A DNA stretch of 64,000 nt from Streptomyces sp. B3I8 (lineage in GTDB: Bacteria; Actinomycetota; Actinomycetes; Streptomycetales; Streptomycetaceae). Where the stretch lies: NCBI RefSeq assembly GCF_030816915.1, contig NZ_JAUSYN010000002.1, positions 62,001 through 126,000 on the forward strand, written 5' to 3'. A model generated the notes under the pieces. It did no database searches. It was given only the letters and a program-made list of their open reading frames with translations, and was not told the origin of the DNA. Within the stretch, counting starts at the first letter, position 1, and every line of letters begins with the position of its first letter. The position numbers and the translations under genes were made by a program. Below are positions 19,156 to 28,145 of the stretch, piece after piece.

Positions 19156-19216
19156 AGGCCTGTTGCGAAAGTCCCGCCTGCCCCGCGGGCGGACGACGGG
19201 ACTTCGCAACAGGCCT
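19156..19216. terminator. Long inverted repeat between convergent genes; terminator or IS-end remnant
   Basis: Arms 19156-19176 and 19197-19216 match over 20 bp with one bulged base, separated by a 20-nt loop that itself contains a CCGCC/GGCGG hairpin. Placed between lacI (+) and the ABC ATPase (-), it can terminate both; the right arm includes the start of the TAA stop of the ATPase gene. The outward sequence AGGCCTGTTGCGAAAGTC also resembles IS5-type terminal repeats. Confidence 0.7.
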
Positions 19217-20007
19217 TAATCGTGTGCGAGGGGCCGGGCGGCGTAGGTGAGGCGGACGACGCCGTCGGCGTGGCGTTCGGTGTGCGCGCGGACGCCGAAG
19301 ACATCGGCGAGGAGGTCCGGGGTGAGCACCTCCAGTACGGGGCCGGCCGCCGCCACGGCTCCGTCGTGCAGGACGACCAGGCGGTCGCAGAGGCGGGCGG
19401 CGAGATCGAGGTCGTGCAGGACGGCGAGGGTGGTCACGCCGGTCGCGCGGATCAGGTCGAGCAGTTCGAACCGGGCCCGGACGTCCAGGTGGTTGGTCGG
19501 CTCGTCCAGCACGAGCAGTCCGGGCTCCTGGGCCAACGCCCGGGCGAGCAGTACGCGTTGGCGCTCGCCGCCGGACAGGGAGGCGAACTCCCGGTCGGCG
19601 AGGGGCCGTACCCCGCAGCGGTCGATGGCGTCGGACACGGCCTCGTGGTCCGACGGCCCGTCCCGGCCGAGCAGTCCGTGGTGCGGGGCGCGTCCGAGGG
19701 CCACGATCTCGGCGACGGTCAGCCCGGTGGTGTTGCCCCCGGGGTCCTGGAGGACGGCGGCCGTACGGCGGGCCGCCGTCCGCGGTGACAGCTCCCAGAC
19801 GTCGTCCTCCCCCACCTTGACCACTCCGTCCGCCGGGCGGAGCGAGCGGTACACGGTGCGCAGCAGGGTGGACTTGCCGCTGCCGTTGGGGCCGACGAGG
19901 CCGACGACGTCGCCCGTGCGGACGTCCAGGCTGACGTCGCGCAGGATCGGCCGGCGCCGCAGGACGACGTGGAGCCGGTCGACGGTGAGGTCCATGCGCT
20001 CTTCCAT
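19216..20007 (-). CDS. Iron-chelate/metallophore ABC transporter ATP-binding protein (FecE type)
   Basis: About 263 residues. It has Walker A 'GPNGSGKST', Q-loop region 'AVLQDPGGNTTGL', signature 'LSGGERQRV', Walker B 'LLVLDEPTNHLD' and switch His in 'VLHDLDLAARL'. Three in-frame ATGs lie at 20019, 20007 and 19995. I chose 20007 because GGGAGA lies at the right distance, but the others are possible. It follows the FecCD permease by a few bases and a binding lipoprotein lies before that, so it powers a siderophore/cobalamin-type importer. The short gap to the Zur-like-boxed biosynthetic genes at 23-28 kb suggests a metallophore complex as the substrate (inference). Confidence 0.9.
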   Translation of the reverse strand: MEERMDLTVDRLHVVLRRRPILRDVSLDVRTGDVVGLVGPNGSGKSTLLRTVYRSLRPADGVVKVGEDDVWELSPRTAARRTAAVLQDPGGNTTGLTVAEIVALGRAPHHGLLGRDGPSDHEAVSDAIDRCGVRPLADREFASLSGGERQRVLLARALAQEPGLLVLDEPTNHLDVRARFELLDLIRATGVTTLAVLHDLDLAARLCDRLVVLHDGAVAAAGPVLEVLTPDLLADVFGVRAHTERHADGVVRLTYAARPLAHD

Positions 20008-20023
20008 CGGGTCTCCCATGCGG

Positions 20024-21049
20024 TCAGTCCAGTCCCTTGTCGCGACGCAGCAGCCACAGGAAGAAGGGGGCGCCGAGCAGCGCGGTGAGGATGCCCAGGG
20101 GCAGTTCCTCGGGGCGGTCGAGGGTGCGCGAGAGCAGGTCGACGAGGACCAGGTAGACGGCACCCAGCAGGGCGGTCAGGGGCAGCAGGCGCCGGTGGTC
20201 GGCTCCGGTGGTCAGCCGCACCAGGTGCGGGATCATCAGGCCGACGAAACCGATGGTGCCGGCGACGGCGATGATCGTGCCGGTCAGCAGCGCGGTGAGG
20301 ACCAGCAGGACGGCGCGCAGCCGGTTGACGTCGGTGCCGAGCGCGGTGGCCGACTCGTCGCCGGCCAGCAGCACGTTGAGGCGGCGGCCGAACCCGGTCA
20401 GCAGCACGGTCGTGGTGAGGACCACCGCGGTGACCGTGGGCAGTTGGTCCCACTGGGCGCCCGCGACGCTGCCCAGCGTCCAGAACATGACCGTCCGCAG
20501 CTCGGTGGGGGTCGCGTGGAGCTGGACGTAGCTGGTCGCGGAGAGGAAGACGTAGCCGACGGCGACGCCCGCGAGGACCAGCCGGGTCGGGGCCAGCCGC
20601 CCCCGGCTCCGGCCGAGCGCGAAGACGAGGGCGCCGGCGGCCACCGCGCCCACGAAGGCCGCCGCGGACACCCCGAGCCCGGCCACCGCCGCGCCCCCGC
20701 CGAGGGTGAGGACGAGGACCGCGCCGAGCGTGGCGCCGTAGGAGAAGCCCAGCACGAGGGGGTCGGCCAGGGGGTTGGCCACCACGGTCTGCAGCACCGC
20801 GCCGGTCACGGCCAGGCCCGCGCCGGCCAGAGCCGCCAGGACCACCCGCGGGGTGCGGAAGTTCCAGACGATCTGGTCGAGCGCGGGGTCGGACGATGCC
20901 GCTCCGAGGCCGGTGACGTGGTGCAGGACGATCCCCCACACGTCGCCGAGCGGGACGTTCACGGCGCCCACGCTGATCGCCACGATCATGACGGCGACCA
21001 GCAGGACGGGCAGGAGTACGAAGGCCAGCGGGACCTTGACCCTGCTCAG
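20024..21049 (-). CDS. FecCD family permease of iron-chelate-type ABC transporter
   Basis: A ~341-residue, ~10-helix membrane permease. Family features are 'GAVLQTVVANPLADPLVLGFS', 'GAGLAVTGAVLQ', 'FVGLMIPHLVRLTTGADHR' and 'ELPLGILTALLGAPFF'. The start is odd: before the first membrane segment the frame has no ATG, GTG or TTG short of 21163, which would overlap the binding-protein gene by 118 bp. A CTG at 21047-21049 overlaps the upstream TGA as CTGA, mirroring the ATGA couplings common in this genome, so I place the start there with low certainty. The next in-frame ATG falls inside helix 1. Confidence 0.82.
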   Translation of the reverse strand: MSRVKVPLAFVLLPVLLVAVMIVAISVGAVNVPLGDVWGIVLHHVTGLGAASSDPALDQIVWNFRTPRVVLAALAGAGLAVTGAVLQTVVANPLADPLVLGFSYGATLGAVLVLTLGGGAAVAGLGVSAAAFVGAVAAGALVFALGRSRGRLAPTRLVLAGVAVGYVFLSATSYVQLHATPTELRTVMFWTLGSVAGAQWDQLPTVTAVVLTTTVLLTGFGRRLNVLLAGDESATALGTDVNRLRAVLLVLTALLTGTIIAVAGTIGFVGLMIPHLVRLTTGADHRRLLPLTALLGAVYLVLVDLLSRTLDRPEELPLGILTALLGAPFFLWLLRRDKGLD

Positions 21050-22104
21050 AACGCGTCGGGGTGCAGCAGCTTCGCGACCCTCTCCACGGCCAGGTCGTTG
21101 CTCGGGCCGAGGTACATCGAGTCGGACAGCGTCACGTACGTGTTGTTCCTGGCGGCCGGCCACTGGGGGAACTCCTTGAACAGTTTCCTGGCGTACGCCG
21201 CCGGGTCGGAATCGTTGAAGCCAAGGACGACGACGGCGTCGACGTCGGTGGCGGCCACCTTCTCCTTGCTGAGGTCGGCGAAGAGGGTGGTGGCGGCGCC
21301 CTCGAAGGCGTTGGTGCCGCCGGCCCGGGCGAGGATGTCGTTGACGATGCCGCGGGCGAACACCGAGCTGAAGGCGTTGTTGCCCATGGCCATGTCGGAG
21401 AACAGGACCATGACCTTCGGCTTCTCCTGCCCCCTCTTCGCTGCCGCCTTCTCCACCTTCCGGGAGACCGCCGCGATGTGCTTCCTGGAGGCGGCGATGA
21501 GCTTCTCGGCCCGGTTCTCGACGTGGAAGATCTTTCCCATGTCGCGCAGCAGCCGGTAGCTGTCGGCGACGGTCATCCTGGAGGGGTCGTCGTCGCAGCC
21601 CTGCGGGGAGACGTAGGTGTGGGCCCCCACCTGTTCGAGCTGCTCGCGGGTGGCGAAGCCGTTCTTCTGGTCGAAGCCGTACGTGGTGACGGACAGGACG
21701 AGGTCGGGGCGCAGTCCGAACATGGCCTCGCGGGGGATGTCGGAGGCCTCGTTGAGCTTGATGTCACCGGTGGGCAGTGCCTTGACGGCGGCGGCCCGGC
21801 CGGCGACCTCGGACATGCCCCAGCTCTGCTGGTTGGCGATGATCCGGTCCTTCAGGCCGAGGGCGAGGAGGGTGGAGACCTCCGCGACGGAGGCGCCGTT
21901 CATGACGACGACCCGGCTGGGCGCCTTCTCGAAGGTCTCCTTGCGTCCGCAGTTGTCCAGCGTGACCGGATAGCCGGACCCGGCACCCGCGGCCCCGTCC
22001 GCTCTCGTACTCTCCTCATCTCCGCCGGAGGAGGAGCCGCACGCCGCCGTGAGCAGACACAGGGCGGCGGTCAGGGCGGCCGCGACCGGCCGGTTCAGCG
22101 ACAT
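21046..22104 (-). CDS. Metallophore/siderophore-binding lipoprotein
   Basis: A 352-residue Peripla_BP_2-type binding protein. The ATG at 22104 has AAGGAG five bases upstream. The signal ends in a lipobox 'LCLLTAAC', followed by a Ser/Gly/Asp linker. The mature part shows 'PSRVVVMNGASVAEVSTLLALG', 'RPDLVLSVTTYGF', 'VMVLFSDMAMGNNAFSSVFA' and 'DVDAVVVLGFNDSDPAA', the two-lobe siderophore-binding fold joined by a long helix ('EKLIAASRKHIAAVSRKVEK'). It is first of a three-gene leftward importer. The next genes upstream are a broken DeoR gene and the zinc-box methyltransferase. I see no Zur-like box in its own promoter. Confidence 0.87.
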   Translation of the reverse strand: MSLNRPVAAALTAALCLLTAACGSSSGGDEESTRADGAAGAGSGYPVTLDNCGRKETFEKAPSRVVVMNGASVAEVSTLLALGLKDRIIANQQSWGMSEVAGRAAAVKALPTGDIKLNEASDIPREAMFGLRPDLVLSVTTYGFDQKNGFATREQLEQVGAHTYVSPQGCDDDPSRMTVADSYRLLRDMGKIFHVENRAEKLIAASRKHIAAVSRKVEKAAAKRGQEKPKVMVLFSDMAMGNNAFSSVFARGIVNDILARAGGTNAFEGAATTLFADLSKEKVAATDVDAVVVLGFNDSDPAAYARKLFKEFPQWPAARNNTYVTLSDSMYLGPSNDLAVERVAKLLHPDAF

Positions 22105-22367: not shown

Positions 22368-22901
22368 ACCGCCAAGCGCCGCATCGCGGCAGAGGTGGCG
22401 TCGCTCCTCACCGACGGGGAGACCGTCCTGCTGGACAGCGGCACGACCTGACTGGAGGTCGCACGGCTGCTGCGCGGGCGGCAGGTGACCGTGATGCCCC
22501 TGTCCCTGCGGGCGATCGGGATTCTCGGCGACTCCCCCGAGCCGACCTCGCTCCTGGTCCCGGGCGGGCGGCCCCGCGTCGGTGAGGGGGCCCTCACCGG
22601 CCCCCTCACCCTCGCCTCCCTGTCGGCGCTGCGCTTCGACACGGCCGTCCTGGGCTGCTGCGGTCTGTCCGCGGCCGACGGGATGACCGCCTACGACCTC
22701 GACGAGGCCGCCGTGAAGAAGGCGGTCATCGCCTCGGCACGCCGGGTCGTCGCCGCCGCCGACGGCGGCAAACTCGGCCGCACCGCCCACGCCCACGTCG
22801 GGCCGGCCTCCCTCGTGCACCTCCTCGTCACCGACGCGAGCGCCCCCGCCGACGAGGTCGCCGCGCTGAAGGGGGACGGCGCCACCGTCAGGACCGTCTG
22901 A
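22368..22901 (+). pseudogene. DeoR/GlpR family regulator remnant
   Basis: In one frame, from about 22374, the sequence reads 'KRRIAAEVASLLTDGETVLL' then 'DSGTT', a TGA at 22449-22451, then 'LEVARLLRGRQVTVMPLSLR' and on to a stop at 22899. This is the sensor half of a DeoR regulator (the D-S-G-T-T sugar-phosphate loop, later 'GCCGLSAADGMTAYDLDEA' and 'VVAAADGGKLGR'). The N-terminal helix-turn-helix is missing and a nonsense codon lies inside the ligand loop, so the gene is dead. A GTG at 22485 could give only a partial domain. Between it and the binding-protein gene (22105-22367) I see no gene. Confidence 0.75.
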
Positions 22902-22998: not shown

Positions 22999-23766
22999 TC
23001 AGGCCTTCAGGGCCACCAGCACCCGGCTGTCGCCCGCCTGCCACACCGGGGTGACATGGCGGAAGCCCCCCCGGTGGAGCAGCCGGGTGTGCCTGGCCAC
23101 GGAGAGGTGCTGGTTGCCGTCGCCCGAGGACGCGCGGCCCTTCTCGCGCTGCCGGTACAGATCGGTCAGCTCGGGATCGGCGGCGACCGCGCGCCACCAC
23201 GACTCCCAGTCCTCGTCCTCGTGCCCGTGCGCCCCGGTCCGCTCGGCCCGGCGGCGCCCCACGTGGGCGGTGAGGTCCGCGCAGGGCGACTCCTCCGGGG
23301 GGAAGTGGTCGCCGTTGACCAGCGCTCCGCCGGGGCGGAGCAGCGCGGCGAGGCCCCGGTACGCGCGCAGCAGGTCGGGGGCGGGGAGGTAGTGCAGTGC
23401 CGTCGTCGAGACGGCGACGTCCACGCCGCGGTCCAGCCCCAGCGCGTCCGTCCAGCCGTCCTCGCCGATCACCGCGTCGACGTACCGGGCCGCGTCGCAA
23501 TGATGGGTGCGCCCCAGTTCCAGCAGTACGGGGTCCATGTCGACGGCGACGATCTCCGCGTCCGGCAGGCGGCGGGCGAGTCTGGCGGACAGGGAGCCGG
23601 GGCCGCAGCCCAGGTCGAGCAGGAGCGGCCGGTCACGGCCGGCGCAGAGATGCTCCGTGACGTCGGCGATCACGGCGAACCGCTCCTCGCGGTCGACCGC
23701 GTAGCGCTGCTGCTGCCGTTCCCAGCGCTCCACCCACATCCTGGCCGTTCCCATGCTCACACCCAT
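22999..23766 (-). CDS. Class I SAM-dependent methyltransferase
   Basis: A 255-residue Rossmann methyltransferase: motif I 'LLLDLGCGPGSLSARLA' (about 48-64), acidic 'IVAVDMDPVLLELG', motif IV region 'VDVAVSTTALHYLPAPDLL', then 'LLRPGGALVNGDHF'. ATGs at 23766 and 23754 are both possible; the first has GAGGTGG upstream. The acceptor is unknown. It lies downstream of the PLP-enzyme operon on the same strand but has its own promoter region, with a Zur-like box 82 bp upstream, a TAGATT -10-like hexamer and a leader of 9-bp repeats. It may methylate a product of that operon. Confidence 0.85.
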   Translation of the reverse strand: MGVSMGTARMWVERWERQQQRYAVDREERFAVIADVTEHLCAGRDRPLLLDLGCGPGSLSARLARRLPDAEIVAVDMDPVLLELGRTHHCDAARYVDAVIGEDGWTDALGLDRGVDVAVSTTALHYLPAPDLLRAYRGLAALLRPGGALVNGDHFPPEESPCADLTAHVGRRRAERTGAHGHEDEDWESWWRAVAADPELTDLYRQREKGRASSGDGNQHLSVARHTRLLHRGGFRHVTPVWQAGDSRVLVALKA

Positions 23767-23791
23767 CCGGCCGCCACCTCGTCCGTCTCGC

Positions 23792-23824
23792 GCCTGTCTT
23801 GCCTGTTGTGCCTGTCACGCCTGT
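23792..23824. repeat. Four tandem 9-bp GCCTGT repeats in methyltransferase leader
   Basis: GCCTGT occurs at 23792, 23801, 23810 and 23819, exactly 9 bp apart, between the Zur-like box and the methyltransferase start. On the coding strand this gives ACAGGC every 9 nt in the 5' leader. Confidence 0.7.
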
Positions 23825-23847
23825 CGGGTCACCACACAATCTACAGG

Positions 23848-23862
23848 TGGAAACGGTTATCA
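23848..23862 (-). promoter_or_regulatory. Zur-like box upstream of methyltransferase
   Basis: On the minus strand the site reads TGATAACCGTTTCCA, a near-palindrome TG..AAC.GTT..CA. It differs by one base from the site at 28059-28073 and fits the Streptomyces Zur core as I recall it (TGAAAATCATTTTCA) at most positions. It overlaps the -35 region of a likely promoter (TAGATT at -10), as expected for a repressor site. Confidence 0.6.
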
Positions 23863-23920
23863 ATAGCATTCTGCTCCGCCGGCCGACGCTCGTTCGGCCG
23901 GCGTCGCGCTTCCGCCCTCC

Positions 23921-25129
23921 TCACTCCAGGGAGTCCAGCACCGCCAGCAGCCGGTCGATCTCCTCGTCCGTGTTGTGGACGTGCAGGCTGACCCGTACGG
24001 ACCCGGCGTTCCCGTCGGCGCCGGCCTGGCAGAGGGTGTCGGCGCGGACCATGAAGCCGTGGCTGTAGAGGATGAAGCCCAGGTCGTCGGCGGGGATGTC
24101 ACGGTGCCGGAAGGTGACGATGCCGTGCCGCCGCTGCGCCACGGGGAGCGTGCTGTCCGCGGTGAGACTCGCGGGGCAGCCCTGGACGTCGTACGCCTCC
24201 AGGCGTCCCAGCCGGTCGGTCAGGCGGGTGGCCAGCCGGGTGACATGGCGGTCGATGCGCGCGGGATCCGCCTCCTGGAGCCAGTCGAGCGCCGCGAGCA
24301 GCGAGACGATGCCCACGGTGTTGGGGGTGCCCTGCCAGCCCCCGGGGCGGAGCGCCGGGCCCCGCGCGTTGCGCGCCCACACGGCTCCCGTACCGGGCAG
24401 GGCCATCGCCTTGTGCCCGGAGAAGACGACGAAGTCCACGTCGAGGGCAGGGTCGTCGACCCGCACGGGGAGGTGGCCGACGCTCTGCGCGGCGTCCAGG
24501 CAGATCGGTACGTCGGGGCCGACGGCGGCGCGCAGCCGGTGCACGTTCATATCGCCGCCGTAGACGTGATGGACGTGGGTGGCCGCGACGAACCGGGTGC
24601 GGGGGCCGGTCACCGCGGCCAGGGCACGGTGGTCGTACTCCCCGGAGGTCTCCTGGACGGGCAGGGCCCGCACCCGCACGTCGGTGCCGCGCTCGGCCAG
24701 CAGCCGCTGGGCCTCGAGCCAGGGGTCCAGGTTGGCCCGGTGGTCGGTGAAGGGCACGAGGATCTCGTCGCCGTCCTTCAGGTAGGGCACGAGCCAGTCG
24801 CGGGCGACGGTACGCAGGCCCTCGGTGGTGCCGCTGGTGAAGTGGACGGCGGAGTGCTCCGGCCGCGGATCGCCGAGGAACTCCTTGATCCGCCGCCGGG
24901 TCCGCTCCACCAGCTCGGTGGTGCGGTTGGCCCAGGGGTACGTGCCGCGGCCGGCGTTGGCGTTGGACGTGGTGAGGTAGGTCCCCACGGCCTCCAGTAC
25001 CGCCCGCGGCTTCTGCGAGGTGGCCGCGCTGTCCAGGTAGGCCAGGTCCGGGTGCGCGGTGACGATCGGGAACTGTGTCCGCAACTTCTCCTGCCAGGCC
25101 CGGAGTTCACCGGGTGTCTCCTCGGGCAC
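23921..25129 (-). CDS. Class V aminotransferase / cysteine desulfurase-like PLP enzyme (SufS type)
   Basis: A 402-residue fold-type I PLP enzyme. The Schiff-base Lys lies in 'VVFSGHKAMALPGTG'; other landmarks are 'YLDSAATSQKPRAVLEAV', 'FTSGTTEGLRTVA', 'THVHHVYGGDMNV' and 'CLDAAQSVGHLPV'. A Cys in 'FMVRADTLCQAG' sits where SufS enzymes have their persulfide Cys, so desulfurase or selenocysteine-lyase-type chemistry is possible, but Ala/Asp lyase or aminotransferase roles are not excluded. The GTG start at 25129 is 3 bp after the stop of the SbnA-like/rhodanese gene, making it third in the operon. The genome's housekeeping suf genes are not in this context. A desulfurase-like enzyme beside a rhodanese domain suggests sulfur transfer into a metabolite. 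Confidence 0.82.
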   Translation of the reverse strand: MPEETPGELRAWQEKLRTQFPIVTAHPDLAYLDSAATSQKPRAVLEAVGTYLTTSNANAGRGTYPWANRTTELVERTRRRIKEFLGDPRPEHSAVHFTSGTTEGLRTVARDWLVPYLKDGDEILVPFTDHRANLDPWLEAQRLLAERGTDVRVRALPVQETSGEYDHRALAAVTGPRTRFVAATHVHHVYGGDMNVHRLRAAVGPDVPICLDAAQSVGHLPVRVDDPALDVDFVVFSGHKAMALPGTGAVWARNARGPALRPGGWQGTPNTVGIVSLLAALDWLQEADPARIDRHVTRLATRLTDRLGRLEAYDVQGCPASLTADSTLPVAQRRHGIVTFRHRDIPADDLGFILYSHGFMVRADTLCQAGADGNAGSVRVSLHVHNTDEEIDRLLAVLDSLE

Positions 25130-25132
25130 GGG

Positions 25133-26470
25133 TCACTCCCTCACCAACGGCGCACCGGCGTCCCGCCAGGCCACGATCCCGCCCGCGAGGCTTCTGACGT
25201 CGGGATGGCCCATGCCGGACAGCAGCGCGGCGTAGCGCAGCGACCTCTCCCCCACCGGACAGGCGAGCAGCACAGGGGTACGTTTGCTGAACGGCAGCCC
25301 GCCGCGCACCAGTTCCTCGAAGAGTTCGTCGACGATGTTCACCGATCCCTCGATGTGCAGGGCCGCGTAGGCGTGCGGGCCGCGCAGGTCCACCACCAGG
25401 GGTCGGGGTTCGCCCTCGGCGATCCAGCGCCGCGCGTCCTCGACGCCGACCGCGCGGCCCCGCGCCCTGATGTCGTCGTCGTCCAGTGCGGCCGGGGAGT
25501 GCCCGCGCCGTGCCCTGCCGAGCAGTTCCGGGCGGCGCCGGCGCACATAGCTCAGATAGCTCTCGGCCCGGTCGCAGACGATGAAGACGGCGGTCTGTCG
25601 GCGTCCGGTGCCCTCCAGTTCGGCGTCCACGCCGGCCAGTTGGCGCACGGCCCCGTAGTAGGCGGCGCCGCCGGTGGGTCCGGAGAGCAGGCCACAGCGG
25701 CGGATCAGGGTGATCATTCCGTCGATGGCCTGCTGGGAGGTGACGGGCGCCAGCAGGTCGTAGGTGGCGGGGTCGAACAGGCCGACCTGGTGCACCTCGT
25801 CGAGGGTGCGGATGCCGGGGATGAAGTCGGACTTGTCGGCGACCAGCCCCAGCACCCGTACGCCGGCGTCGTGTTCACGCAGGACGCGGGCGACGCCGGT
25901 GGAGGAGCCCGCGGTGCCGACGCAGGCCACGAACCAGTCCGGTGCCCGCCCGTCGAGGTCCTTGACTATCTCGGGCCCGGTGCCGGCCGCGTGCGCCTCG
26001 ACGTTGCGCGGGTTGAAGTACTGGTCGGTGTGCAGATAGGTGGTGCCGGGCCCGGAGAGCGCCTGGTGGAAGCGGGTGAGCGGGTCGTCGGTGTCGGTGG
26101 GGTCGAGGCACTCGCTGCGGCCGGGCAGTTCCTCGATCTCGGCGCCGAGCAGCAGGAGCAGTTCCTTGATCTCGGGTACGCGCATCCGGTTGGTCACGCT
26201 CTTGAACTTCAGCCCGTGCATCCCGGCCAGCAGCGCGAGCGCCTTGGCCGTGTTGCCGCTGGAGAGTTCCACGACCGTTCCGTCGCCGCCCGCCGCCTCC
26301 TGAAGGTGGGGGCGGGCCATGTGCCAGGCGGGCCGGTCCTTCACGGAGCCGAAGGGGTTGAGCATCTCCAGTTTGGCGTAGAGGTCGATGTGGCGCAGAC
26401 CGTGCACCGCCGGGTCGATGCGGACGAGCGGGGTGTTGCCGATGGCTTCCGTGATGCTGTCGTACCTCAT
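25133..26470 (-). CDS. SbnA-like PLP synthase fused to a rhodanese domain
   Basis: 445 residues in two parts. Residues 1-~325 are a fold-type II PLP enzyme of the cysteine-synthase/SbnA group: 'GNTPLVRI', Schiff-base Lys44 in 'NPFGSVKDRPAWH', phosphate/substrate loop 'ELSSGNTAKAL', then 'VACVGTAGSSTGVAR' and 'SGPTGGAAYYGA'. SbnA itself joins O-phosphoserine and glutamate for staphyloferrin B. Residues ~340-445 form a rhodanese domain with an intact active-site loop 'LLACPVGERS' (Cys, Arg). The ATG at 26470 overlaps the previous stop (ATGA) and has GGGAG upstream. Beside a decarboxylase and a SufS-like enzyme, it may build an amino-acid- or sulfur-containing metallophore. No SbnB-type dehydrogenase partner is present. 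Confidence 0.85.
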   Translation of the reverse strand: MRYDSITEAIGNTPLVRIDPAVHGLRHIDLYAKLEMLNPFGSVKDRPAWHMARPHLQEAAGGDGTVVELSSGNTAKALALLAGMHGLKFKSVTNRMRVPEIKELLLLLGAEIEELPGRSECLDPTDTDDPLTRFHQALSGPGTTYLHTDQYFNPRNVEAHAAGTGPEIVKDLDGRAPDWFVACVGTAGSSTGVARVLREHDAGVRVLGLVADKSDFIPGIRTLDEVHQVGLFDPATYDLLAPVTSQQAIDGMITLIRRCGLLSGPTGGAAYYGAVRQLAGVDAELEGTGRRQTAVFIVCDRAESYLSYVRRRRPELLGRARRGHSPAALDDDDIRARGRAVGVEDARRWIAEGEPRPLVVDLRGPHAYAALHIEGSVNIVDELFEELVRGGLPFSKRTPVLLACPVGERSLRYAALLSGMGHPDVRSLAGGIVAWRDAGAPLVRE

Positions 26471-27984
26471 GACGGCACTCCCTGCGGGTGTGTGAGCGGC
26501 CAGTAGTTCTCGTCCGGGCACCAGCGCCAGGTCCCGCCCTCCTCCGTGACCGCCACCGACCGCGCGAGCGGCCTGCGTTGCGCGTGGTGGGCGTGGAAGT
26601 CCATGACGTATCCGGCGGTGTTGACGAAGGCCATCAGGTCCCCCGGCCGGGGCAGCCGGGGCAGGAACACCAGGCGGCGGGTGATCAGGTCGGCCTCCAG
26701 GCAGAGGTTGCCGACGAGGTGGACCCCGACCGGCTCCCCGCCCGCCGCCTCCTGGTGCGGCGGGCCGCCGCGCGGCAGCAGAACGGGATCGACGAGGACC
26801 CCGTGCTCCTCCAGGCTCACGTCCCCCGCGTTCATGCCGAGCCGTACCAGGTACCGGCCGGGGCCGTCGCCTCCCAGGGGCCGCACCTCCTCGACCCGCG
26901 CCAGCGACAGTCCGCACTGGTCGACGAGGGCGCGGCCGGGTTCGACGTACAGGTCGTGGAGGTGCTCCAGGAGCAGGGTGGCGGCCGGCCGGCCGAGGAC
27001 GGGGGCCGGGCGGGAGAGCAGCGCGTCGAGGTAGCCGGGGCCCGCGGTGGGCCGGTGGGCGGGGTAGAGGGCGGCGGTGCCGCGCACCGTGCCCGCCTCG
27101 TTGCGCAGGCCGTAGCCGTGGCCGCGCCAGGTCAGCGGCGGGCGGGTGCCGAGGACGGCCTCGCTCAGCGCGGTCGTCCAGCGCTCCCACTCACCGGCGT
27201 CCTCGACGTAGCCGACGCCGAAGCCGCCGCCGATGTCCACCGCGCGTGGCGCGAGACCCCGTGCGCGGCACTCGTCCATGAGCAGCACGCAGCGTTCCAG
27301 GGCCCGGCCCTTCTCCTCCAGGCCGGTGGTGTCCAAGTGGTGTGCGAGGCCGACGAGTTCGAGGCTGTCCGCATGCCGTTCCAGCGCCGCCCAGAGCCCG
27401 TCCGCCTCGGCGACCGGGGTGCCGAACCGGCTGCGGCGCGAGAGCAGCCGGGTGCCGGCGCCGCCGGGTTCGGCACCGGTCGCCGACTCGAACCCGGACA
27501 GCCGCACCAGTACGTCCGTCCTGGCCAGTCCGTATTTCCGTACGAGCGCTGCCAGTTGGTCGAGTTCGCCGGGCGAGTCGACGTTCACCGTCGCACCCGT
27601 CCGGGCGGCCAGCCACAGGAACTCCGGGTCCTTCGGGCCGGTCGCCATCACGCGGTCCCCGGTGAAGCCGCAGCTCAGCGCGTGGCGCAGTTCCTCCAGA
27701 GAGGCCACGTCGATGCCGACGGCGGCCGGGTCGCAGGCCGCGAGTCTGCGCACCAGAGCGCTGGAACGATTCGCCTTGTGGGCGAAGTACACCCGCCCGG
27801 CCAGGTGGTGGCGCCGGTAGACGGAGCGGAAGCGCTCCGCGTTCGCGGCGACCACCTCCGGGAGCAGCACGTTCAGCGGCGATCCCAGGGCGTCGGCCAG
27901 GGAGTGCAGCAACGGCGCGTTCCCGAGCAATGAGGCGAGCGGTGGGTCGACCCGCGGCCTCAGATACAAGGGCGCGTCCTTCAC
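26467..27984 (-). CDS. Fold-type III PLP enzyme, diaminopimelate/ornithine decarboxylase-like (Y4yA-type)
   Basis: A 505-residue alanine-racemase/DAP-decarboxylase-fold enzyme: PLP Lys70 in 'YFAHKANRSSALV', Gly-rich phosphate loop 'VDIGGGFGVGYVEDAG', 'VEPGRALVDQCG' and the second-subunit Cys in 'LVGNLCLEADLI'. Its length exceeds plain LysA (about 420-460). It looks like the group called Y4yA in rhizobial symbiosis plasmids, which I recall also sitting beside a cysteine-synthase homologue (Y4xP); that parallel is from memory. The GTG start at 27984 has an excellent GGGGAGG site. It heads the three-gene operon 27984-23921 and is preceded by a Zur-like box. SbnH, a decarboxylase of this fold, works in staphyloferrin B synthesis. 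Confidence 0.85.
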   Translation of the reverse strand: MKDAPLYLRPRVDPPLASLLGNAPLLHSLADALGSPLNVLLPEVVAANAERFRSVYRRHHLAGRVYFAHKANRSSALVRRLAACDPAAVGIDVASLEELRHALSCGFTGDRVMATGPKDPEFLWLAARTGATVNVDSPGELDQLAALVRKYGLARTDVLVRLSGFESATGAEPGGAGTRLLSRRSRFGTPVAEADGLWAALERHADSLELVGLAHHLDTTGLEEKGRALERCVLLMDECRARGLAPRAVDIGGGFGVGYVEDAGEWERWTTALSEAVLGTRPPLTWRGHGYGLRNEAGTVRGTAALYPAHRPTAGPGYLDALLSRPAPVLGRPAATLLLEHLHDLYVEPGRALVDQCGLSLARVEEVRPLGGDGPGRYLVRLGMNAGDVSLEEHGVLVDPVLLPRGGPPHQEAAGGEPVGVHLVGNLCLEADLITRRLVFLPRLPRPGDLMAFVNTAGYVMDFHAHHAQRRPLARSVAVTEEGGTWRWCPDENYWPLTHPQGVPS

Positions 27985-28058
27985 GAAGTACCTCCCCGTG
28001 TCAGGCGTCGGTGGTCGGACGTCGCCCGATCACCACGCCGTCCCCGATGATCAGGTCG

Positions 28059-28073
28059 TGATAATCGTTTCCA
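28059..28073 (+). promoter_or_regulatory. Zur-like box upstream of the PLP-enzyme operon
   Basis: TGATAATCGTTTCCA matches the recalled Streptomyces Zur core TGAAAATCATTTTCA at 12 of 15 positions and the methyltransferase site at 14 of 15. It lies 75 bp upstream of the decarboxylase-like gene and 100 bp upstream of the divergent TetR gene. The position is equivalent to that of the methyltransferase box. Confidence 0.6.
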
Positions 28074-28145
28074 ACTCACGTGCCGTTAAGCATCCTTCTC
28101 CGCGCGTGATGCCGCGGCGGGGCCGGAACCTGGCACTCCGCCCGA

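Follow-up and report, generated by a model that had tools for sequence, protein, structure and literature searches.

A conserved Streptomyces cassette of three PLP enzymes and a methyltransferase as a candidate Zur-repressed route to a small sulfur-containing zinc ligand

We analysed a stretch of 64,000 nucleotides from Streptomyces sp. B3I8 (contig NZ_JAUSYN010000002.1; the window in the following), in which positions 22999..28073 hold four genes on the minus strand, i.e. DC, SBNA and SUFS, coding for three pyridoxal 5'-phosphate (PLP) enzymes, and MT, coding for an S-adenosylmethionine (SAM)-dependent methyltransferase, together with two short palindromes resembling binding sites of the zinc repressor Zur. 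The cassette and its promoter elements are the following:

26467..27984, minus strand: DC, fold-III PLP enzyme of 505 amino acids, diaminopimelate-decarboxylase-like (starts at 27984)
25133..26470, minus strand: SBNA, CysM-like fold-II PLP enzyme with a C-terminal rhodanese domain (PALP-rhodanese fusion)
25160..25438, minus strand: rhodanese domain of SBNA (PF00581), with a catalytic-type Cys in CPVGERS
23921..25129, minus strand: SUFS, SufS-like class-V PLP enzyme with a persulfide-type Cys367
22999..23766, minus strand: MT, SAM-dependent methyltransferase of 255 amino acids (PF13649)
23848..23862, minus strand: Zur box of MT, TGATAACCGTTTCCA in MT orientation, 81 bp from the MT start codon
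28059..28073, minus strand: Zur-like box of DC, TGGAAACGATTATCA in DC orientation, 74 bp from the DC start codon
23838..23843, minus strand: probable -10 element TAGATT, on the downstream side of the MT box at a distance of 4 bp, assigned from the sequence and the conserved columns right of the box

DC and SBNA overlap by 4 bp, SBNA and SUFS are separated by 3 bp and 154 bp lie between the end of SUFS and the start of MT. When aligned in a single orientation, the two boxes differ in one base of 15. An earlier interpretation made from the letters of the window, here called the sequence-only reading, had placed the three PLP genes, the methyltransferase and two palindromes alike in 14 of 15 bases at these positions, all of which we confirm.

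The proposal that the genes form a coherent set is strongly supported by their conservation. A genome scan yielded 182 relatives of the fusion, of which the best 80 were used, all from Streptomyces except for one from Actinacidiphila. All four genes were matched in the same order in 80 of 80 loci (five matches cover less than 80% of the query), with MT located after SUFS in each of them, in L048 at a distance of 2.8 kb. As close relatives are over-represented in these 80, we added an even sample of the order. Of the 293 genomes in this sample of the Streptomyces order, which spans nine genera, 72 contain the fusion, all from a single genus, and 60 of these 72 were taken, several belonging to strains that also occur in the set of 80. 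The order DC-SBNA-SUFS-MT was found in 58 of the 60; MT was not seen in the fetched stretch of the other two, in one of which, apparently the L048 strain, it lies about 3 kb further. The 12 genomes omitted from the 60 are the B3I8 genome itself and G031, G042, G043, G046, G049, G057, G100, G157, G267, G269 and G282; box status, given below, covers seven of these 12, with G046, G049, G057 and G267 outside it. In G042 (C34) and G043 (C1) the fusion gene was matched as two pieces in different frames near the inter-domain linker.

The motif from chromatin immunoprecipitation of S. coelicolor Zur is tGaNNatSatNNtCa, a 7-1-7 palindrome (PMC5472717), and both cassette boxes fit such a 15-bp palindrome near a promoter. 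A LacI-type operator is not favoured, as the palindrome has an odd centre. The pattern TGRNAAYSRTTNYCA occurs exactly at three places in the 7.98-Mb genome, i.e. the two cassette boxes and the znuA promoter, compared to an expectation of about 0.2 places under a first-order Markov model of the window. As TGRNAAYSRTTNYCA was composed after both boxes were known, with the help of known Zur boxes, only the third match, at znuA, and the orthologous loci are fair tests. The gene znuA was named from its own sequence and the ATPase gene following it, and a Fur-family gene (PF01475 match, C2:2206189) lies about 3 kb from its box. With one mismatch allowed, the genome contains 20 places for TGRNAAYSRTTNYCA vs nine for the reversed pattern. 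Sixteen of 17 one-mismatch places were inspected: one is located at rpmG2/rpmB2-rpsN2, coding for alternative ribosomal proteins, and zinc genes were recognised at none of the other 15; the 17th adjoins the znuA box. Summed over 30 genomes, chosen by us from the 72 with the fusion, exact TGRNAAYSRTTNYCA occurs 125 times vs three times for the reversed pattern.

Turning to the orthologous loci, 78 of the 80 named ones have an exact MT box and the other two a 12/13 match. Among the 58 even-sample genomes with MT it matches 13/13 in 42, 12/13 in two and 8/13 in one, and 13 contain the half-degenerate variant CTGCAATGATTT[TC]CA (11/13). Of the genomes outside the 60, G031, G043, G100, G157, G269 and G282 have an exact box in the stretch inspected, and G042 has none there. 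An alignment of 78 loci, picked for an exact MT box, gives 1.72 bits per column for the box vs 0.41 for the 30 bases left and 0.53 for the 50 bases right of it, and reveals a TGTAG stretch after the box. As a control, 133 of 5000 windows of 220 bp from the same stretches, true sites included, reach 12/13.

The window does contain the DC box, which is mostly unconserved as a palindrome, the full palindrome being present mainly in close relatives. A match of at least 12/13 within 300 bp of DC was found in eight of 77 loci (the 80 minus L009, L040 and L070, whose DC start is truncated or wrongly placed); of the 60 genomes, six have one within 200 bp, three of these being the lower-identity genomes L316, L318 and L319. 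The 15-mers, which the sequence-only reading expected at orthologous loci, are hence retained before MT and largely missing before DC, where many loci hold TGGAAACGACTAC within a longer conserved element in place of the palindrome. This element of about 50 bp, GCTTAGCGGCGCGTGTA..TGGAAACGACTAC.., mostly not a Zur palindrome, is seen at 28030-28110 of the window and in L010-L047, and a related form in L057-L084. We dropped the idea of an RNA leader upstream of DC, RNAalifold giving no structure and Rfam one chance match on 401 bases.

Pfam and NCBIfam concur with the fold assignments of the cassette enzymes. DC matches PF02784; lysA is its top NCBIfam model, under the cut-off of that model. Its best relative in the PDB is diaminopimelate decarboxylase (DAPDC), the folds of which also match best to its AlphaFold model of moderate confidence (70.6), and the PLP Lys in AHKAN is invariant in 27 sequences. 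None of the 19 PDB matches is named SbnH; a direct comparison of DC and SbnH was not made. The fusion matches PF00291 and PF00581 and scores 162.1 bits with the NCBIfam model cysKM, below its cut-off, and 133.6 bits with the SbnA model TIGR03945, below the cut-off of 349.95. M. tuberculosis CysM is its best PDB match (118 bits vs 76 for SbnA), and within the B3I8 genome CysM is nearest (36% identity vs 28% for the SbnA-like protein of another cluster). The SbnA likeness put forward in the sequence-only reading is therefore weak, and we reject an SbnA equivalence because the CysK/CysM models, CysM in the PDB and the genome's own CysM are all closer. The Lys of VKDR and the Arg of PGIR are conserved in 81 sequences and six variants, the latter aligning with Arg220 of M. 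tuberculosis CysM, which we take to be the phosphoserine determinant of the O-phosphoserine site. The rhodanese Cys (CPVGERS) is at least 98.5% conserved in the 81 sequences, invariant in 27 and also present in six non-Streptomyces forms; the fusion's AlphaFold model was of poor quality (predicted local distance difference test 59.8, predicted template modelling score 0.42) and not used. SUFS matches PF00266, with SufS as best PDB match, about 30% identity to the SufS of the same genome and 230.8 bits against TIGR01979, below the cut-off of 475.1. Its PLP Lys and Cys367 are conserved in the Streptomyces set and in variants; the variants used for these residue checks reach down to 37-48% identity. 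MT is a generic class-I methyltransferase. No IucA/IucC-type synthetase was found among the ten window proteins scanned.

Within 10 kb of the cassette, zinc-starvation-type genes, i.e. genes named by reading as alternative L28, L33 or S14, COG0523 GTPases or zinc ABC (ATP-binding cassette) transporters, occur in 33 of 80 loci (27 of the 62 full-length ones) at an identity of at least 38%, and in 28 of 80 under a stricter cut of at least 60% identity and minimum lengths. By our own estimate, made at about four boxes per genome as a rough figure and with no computed control, chance would account for about 1%, and the loci are interrelated. One contig of G240 (L168-L170, C4:1-60000) carries a coelibactin-like non-ribosomal peptide synthetase (NRPS) region, ABC transporters, the cassette and five exact boxes, and in addition a Fur-family gene, a COG0523 gene and alternative ribosomal protein genes, all named by reading, forming a zinc island. 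In eight of 80 loci (L011, L016, L023, L026, L028, L029, L035 and L039), the genes ahead of DC, on its strand, are SagC-like, CocE-like, YcaO, SagB-like and two for ABC transporters; Pfam matches in examples confirmed YcaO and the ABC genes, SagB and CocE were assigned by reading and the SagC-like protein has no Pfam match. In G268 (C1:805000-823400; L172, L173) an unbroken one-strand array of about 18 kb runs from an exact box to MT: the box is followed after about 50 bp by genes for a substrate-binding protein (SBP), two FecCD proteins, an ATPase and the SagC-like, CocE-like and YcaO proteins, continuing with SagB-like, two ABC transporter genes, DC, the fusion, SUFS and MT, and an NRPS gene lies beyond MT. 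This YcaO/SagB/SagC array is a candidate for a ribosomally synthesised and post-translationally modified peptide metallophore under Zur control.

Our data, comprising the gene set, operon layout, boxes, conservation and active-site residues, suggest, as the most economical reading, that the cassette is repressed by Zur and yields a small sulfur-containing metabolite, which is probably a zinc ligand. We give about an even chance to the full form of this reading, according to which the cassette makes a specialised metabolite serving to obtain or handle zinc. The Zur control proposed in the sequence-only reading is well supported at MT, because of the znuA match, the conservation of the MT box and the zinc-starvation neighbours, and conservation does not support it at the DC box; for the PLP operon it is plausible, as is the metallophore reading as a whole. 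A sulfur-containing product is favoured, since the conserved cysteines of the rhodanese and SufS-like enzymes indicate sulfur chemistry. From these data we infer Zur binding, the reactions, the product and its secretion as follows. At low zinc, Zur would leave the MT box, in this strain also the DC box, allowing expression of all four genes. The SufS-like enzyme would convert cysteine sulfur to a persulfide, with the rhodanese domain acting as sulfur carrier, and the aminoacrylate derived from O-phosphoserine might receive this sulfur, or a nucleophile bearing sulfur, at the CysM-like domain. DC could then decarboxylate the resulting amino acid and MT methylate it, giving a small sulfur-containing zinc ligand. 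A metallophore is consistent with the metal-, export- and import-related genes near the cassette in a minority of loci.

Genomes outside Streptomyces bear on this reading in both directions. The fusion was found in five of 394 genomes sampled in the class (E <= 1e-50). In two genomes of family f91, DC, the fusion and SUFS are 61-75% identical, with no MT match in 20 kb; a 12/13 site follows SUFS directly in L218, also of f91. L214 has a cassette 57-66% identical, a stop within the DC frame and an exact box about 5 kb upstream of the cassette. Three of the five genomes are taken as Nocardia from the relatives of an extra protein. In L215, L216 and L217, SUFS, DC and the rhodanese fusion form a divergent operon of Nocardia type, with no box of at least 12/13. 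In L215 and L217 the extra protein is encoded between SUFS and DC and carries a heavy-metal-associated domain at its C-terminus (25.8 and 23.9 bits vs a cut-off of 24.8); it has at least 352 relatives, and every organism named among the 120 listed is Nocardia. An operon of the same three enzymes with a heavy-metal-associated domain protein supports the zinc-ligand reading. Several observations weigh against it: near the cassette, an MT homologue was found in none of these five genomes, and the boxes are absent or off the cassette promoter in all five; 14 of the 58 even-sample genomes fall below 12/13 at the MT box; the DC box is mostly unconserved and therefore the PLP operon may lack direct Zur control in many strains; the YcaO/ABC array is missing from 72 of 80 loci; and the four conserved genes include no ligase, exporter or importer.

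The same evidence can be read in other ways. The fusion and the SufS-like enzyme might replace CysM-CysO-Mec+ and SufS-SufU in a zinc-sparing sulfur route, by which cysteine synthesis and sulfur transfer continue without zinc. Mec+ and SufU require zinc, and M. tuberculosis reportedly has a zinc SufU-SufS pair, judging from the title of a study. We consider the zinc-sparing route unlikely; it deserves attention because the B3I8 genome holds the systems to be replaced, i.e. cysM-cysO-mec+, with a JAMM-type HSH...SRTD motif, and sufC-sufS-sufU (both by reading), to which the cassette enzymes are distantly related as paralogues (36% to CysM, 30% to SufS), and the Arg aligned with CysM Arg220 is conserved. 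Alternative ribosomal proteins are a precedent for replacements within Zur regulons (PMC6103462). Such a route leaves DC and MT unexplained, and it has to accommodate a fusion present in just 72 of 293 genomes of the order and three Nocardia-type forms having no box of at least 12/13 within 20 kb.

That the cassette product is a modified sulfur amino acid, serving as a building block for adjacent NRPS, polyketide synthase (PKS) or YcaO clusters, appears quite improbable. It would account for the coelibactin-like genes on the G240 contig, the reductase-like and P450-like genes (by reading) about 7 kb upstream of the Nocardia-type L214 cassette, the YcaO/SagB/ABC genes directly before the cassette in eight of 80 loci and the NRPS gene beyond MT in G268, yet the YcaO set is missing from 72 of 80 loci, a reductase-like match was found in four of 80, in a scan that did not search NRPS/PKS genes systematically, and the clustering may merely reflect islands of Zur genes. 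Less probable still is that MT is the sole Zur target, the PLP genes belonging to sulfur metabolism under another regulator and being adjacent incidentally: a conserved MT box, a mostly unconserved DC box and a different conserved element of about 50 bp before DC speak for it, and the fixed gene order (80/80 and 58/60) as well as DC boxes of at least 12/13 in close relatives of the window and in L316, L318 and L319 argue against it. The Zur-repressed zinc-ligand cassette might also be combined with zinc sparing: a zinc-free sulfur relay under a Zur switch, running from the SufS-like enzyme through the rhodanese to the CysM-like domain, would bypass zinc-dependent Mec+ and SufU, with DC and MT leading to a zinc-binding metabolite made without a ligase. 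This combination is speculative and has a low probability; if true, a single cassette would both spare and fetch zinc.

Compared to known systems, the cassette shares Zur boxes and zinc-limitation logic with the Zur-controlled zincophore clusters for coelibactin of S. coelicolor and for ethylenediamine disuccinate ([S,S]-EDDS) of Amycolatopsis japonicum, the genes of the latter not being compared (PMC5472717 and PMC6103462); it differs in that its four genes include no NRPS. With SbnA/SbnB/SbnH of staphyloferrin B (PMC12414870) it has in common a fold-II PLP enzyme, probably using O-phosphoserine, and a fold-III decarboxylase-like enzyme, but the fusion is nearer to CysM and carries a rhodanese domain, DC is closest to DAPDC, and no SbnB or NRPS-independent siderophore (NIS) synthetase was found among the scanned cassette neighbours. 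SBNA resembles the CysM of the CysM-CysO-Mec+ route including the aligned phosphate-site Arg, and differs in its rhodanese domain, the missing adjoining CysO gene and its partners DC and MT. SUFS has the PLP Lys and persulfide-type Cys of the SufS-SufU system, and differs by its identity of about 30% to the genome's own SufS and by its operon, which contains a rhodanese fusion and no SufU. Full-text literature searches, mostly not covering subscription papers, did not return a description of this gene set among the matches listed; further sources are PMC12161575, PMC11888242, PMC8914351 and PMC12910592. Zur-regulated gene sets offer direct access to new zinc ligands and to zinc-sparing enzymes. 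The cassette is frequent in sampled Streptomyces, small enough to be expressed as a whole and without the NRPS, PKS and NIS enzymes usually targeted by genome-mining rules, and the MT box makes testing of its zinc dependence simple.

Some observations concern the wider neighbourhood. A second DC homologue (35%) is located in the B3I8 genome (G000 C2:7463900-7473700, L220) and neighboured by genes read as SbnB-like, SbnA-like and an oligopeptide/nickel-type ABC transporter, possibly representing an aminopolycarboxylate cluster; L224 is similar, with its SbnB-like and multidrug and toxic compound extrusion (MATE) genes confirmed by Pfam. Of the 80 loci, 15 encode a small His-rich protein no further than 10 kb from the cassette (e.g. 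L042:10308-10607), the one example tested matching no Pfam family. In L174 this protein's gene adjoins an ArsR-like gene (by reading) that is preceded at 11 bp by an exact Zur box; box and ArsR-like gene are arranged alike in L171. Downstream of MT, the window contains an importer of uncertain membership:

19216..22104, minus strand: SBP-FecCD-ATPase importer genes (PF01497, PF01032, PF00005)

No exact Zur box was found at these genes, and the importer was rejected as a conserved part of the cassette, the complete trio occurring within 10 kb of it in one of 80 loci (L022); the FecCD-type importer of G268 is a different one. Between importer and MT, at 22449-22901, lies the remnant of a DeoR-type regulator with an in-frame TGA ahead of the remaining sensor domain.

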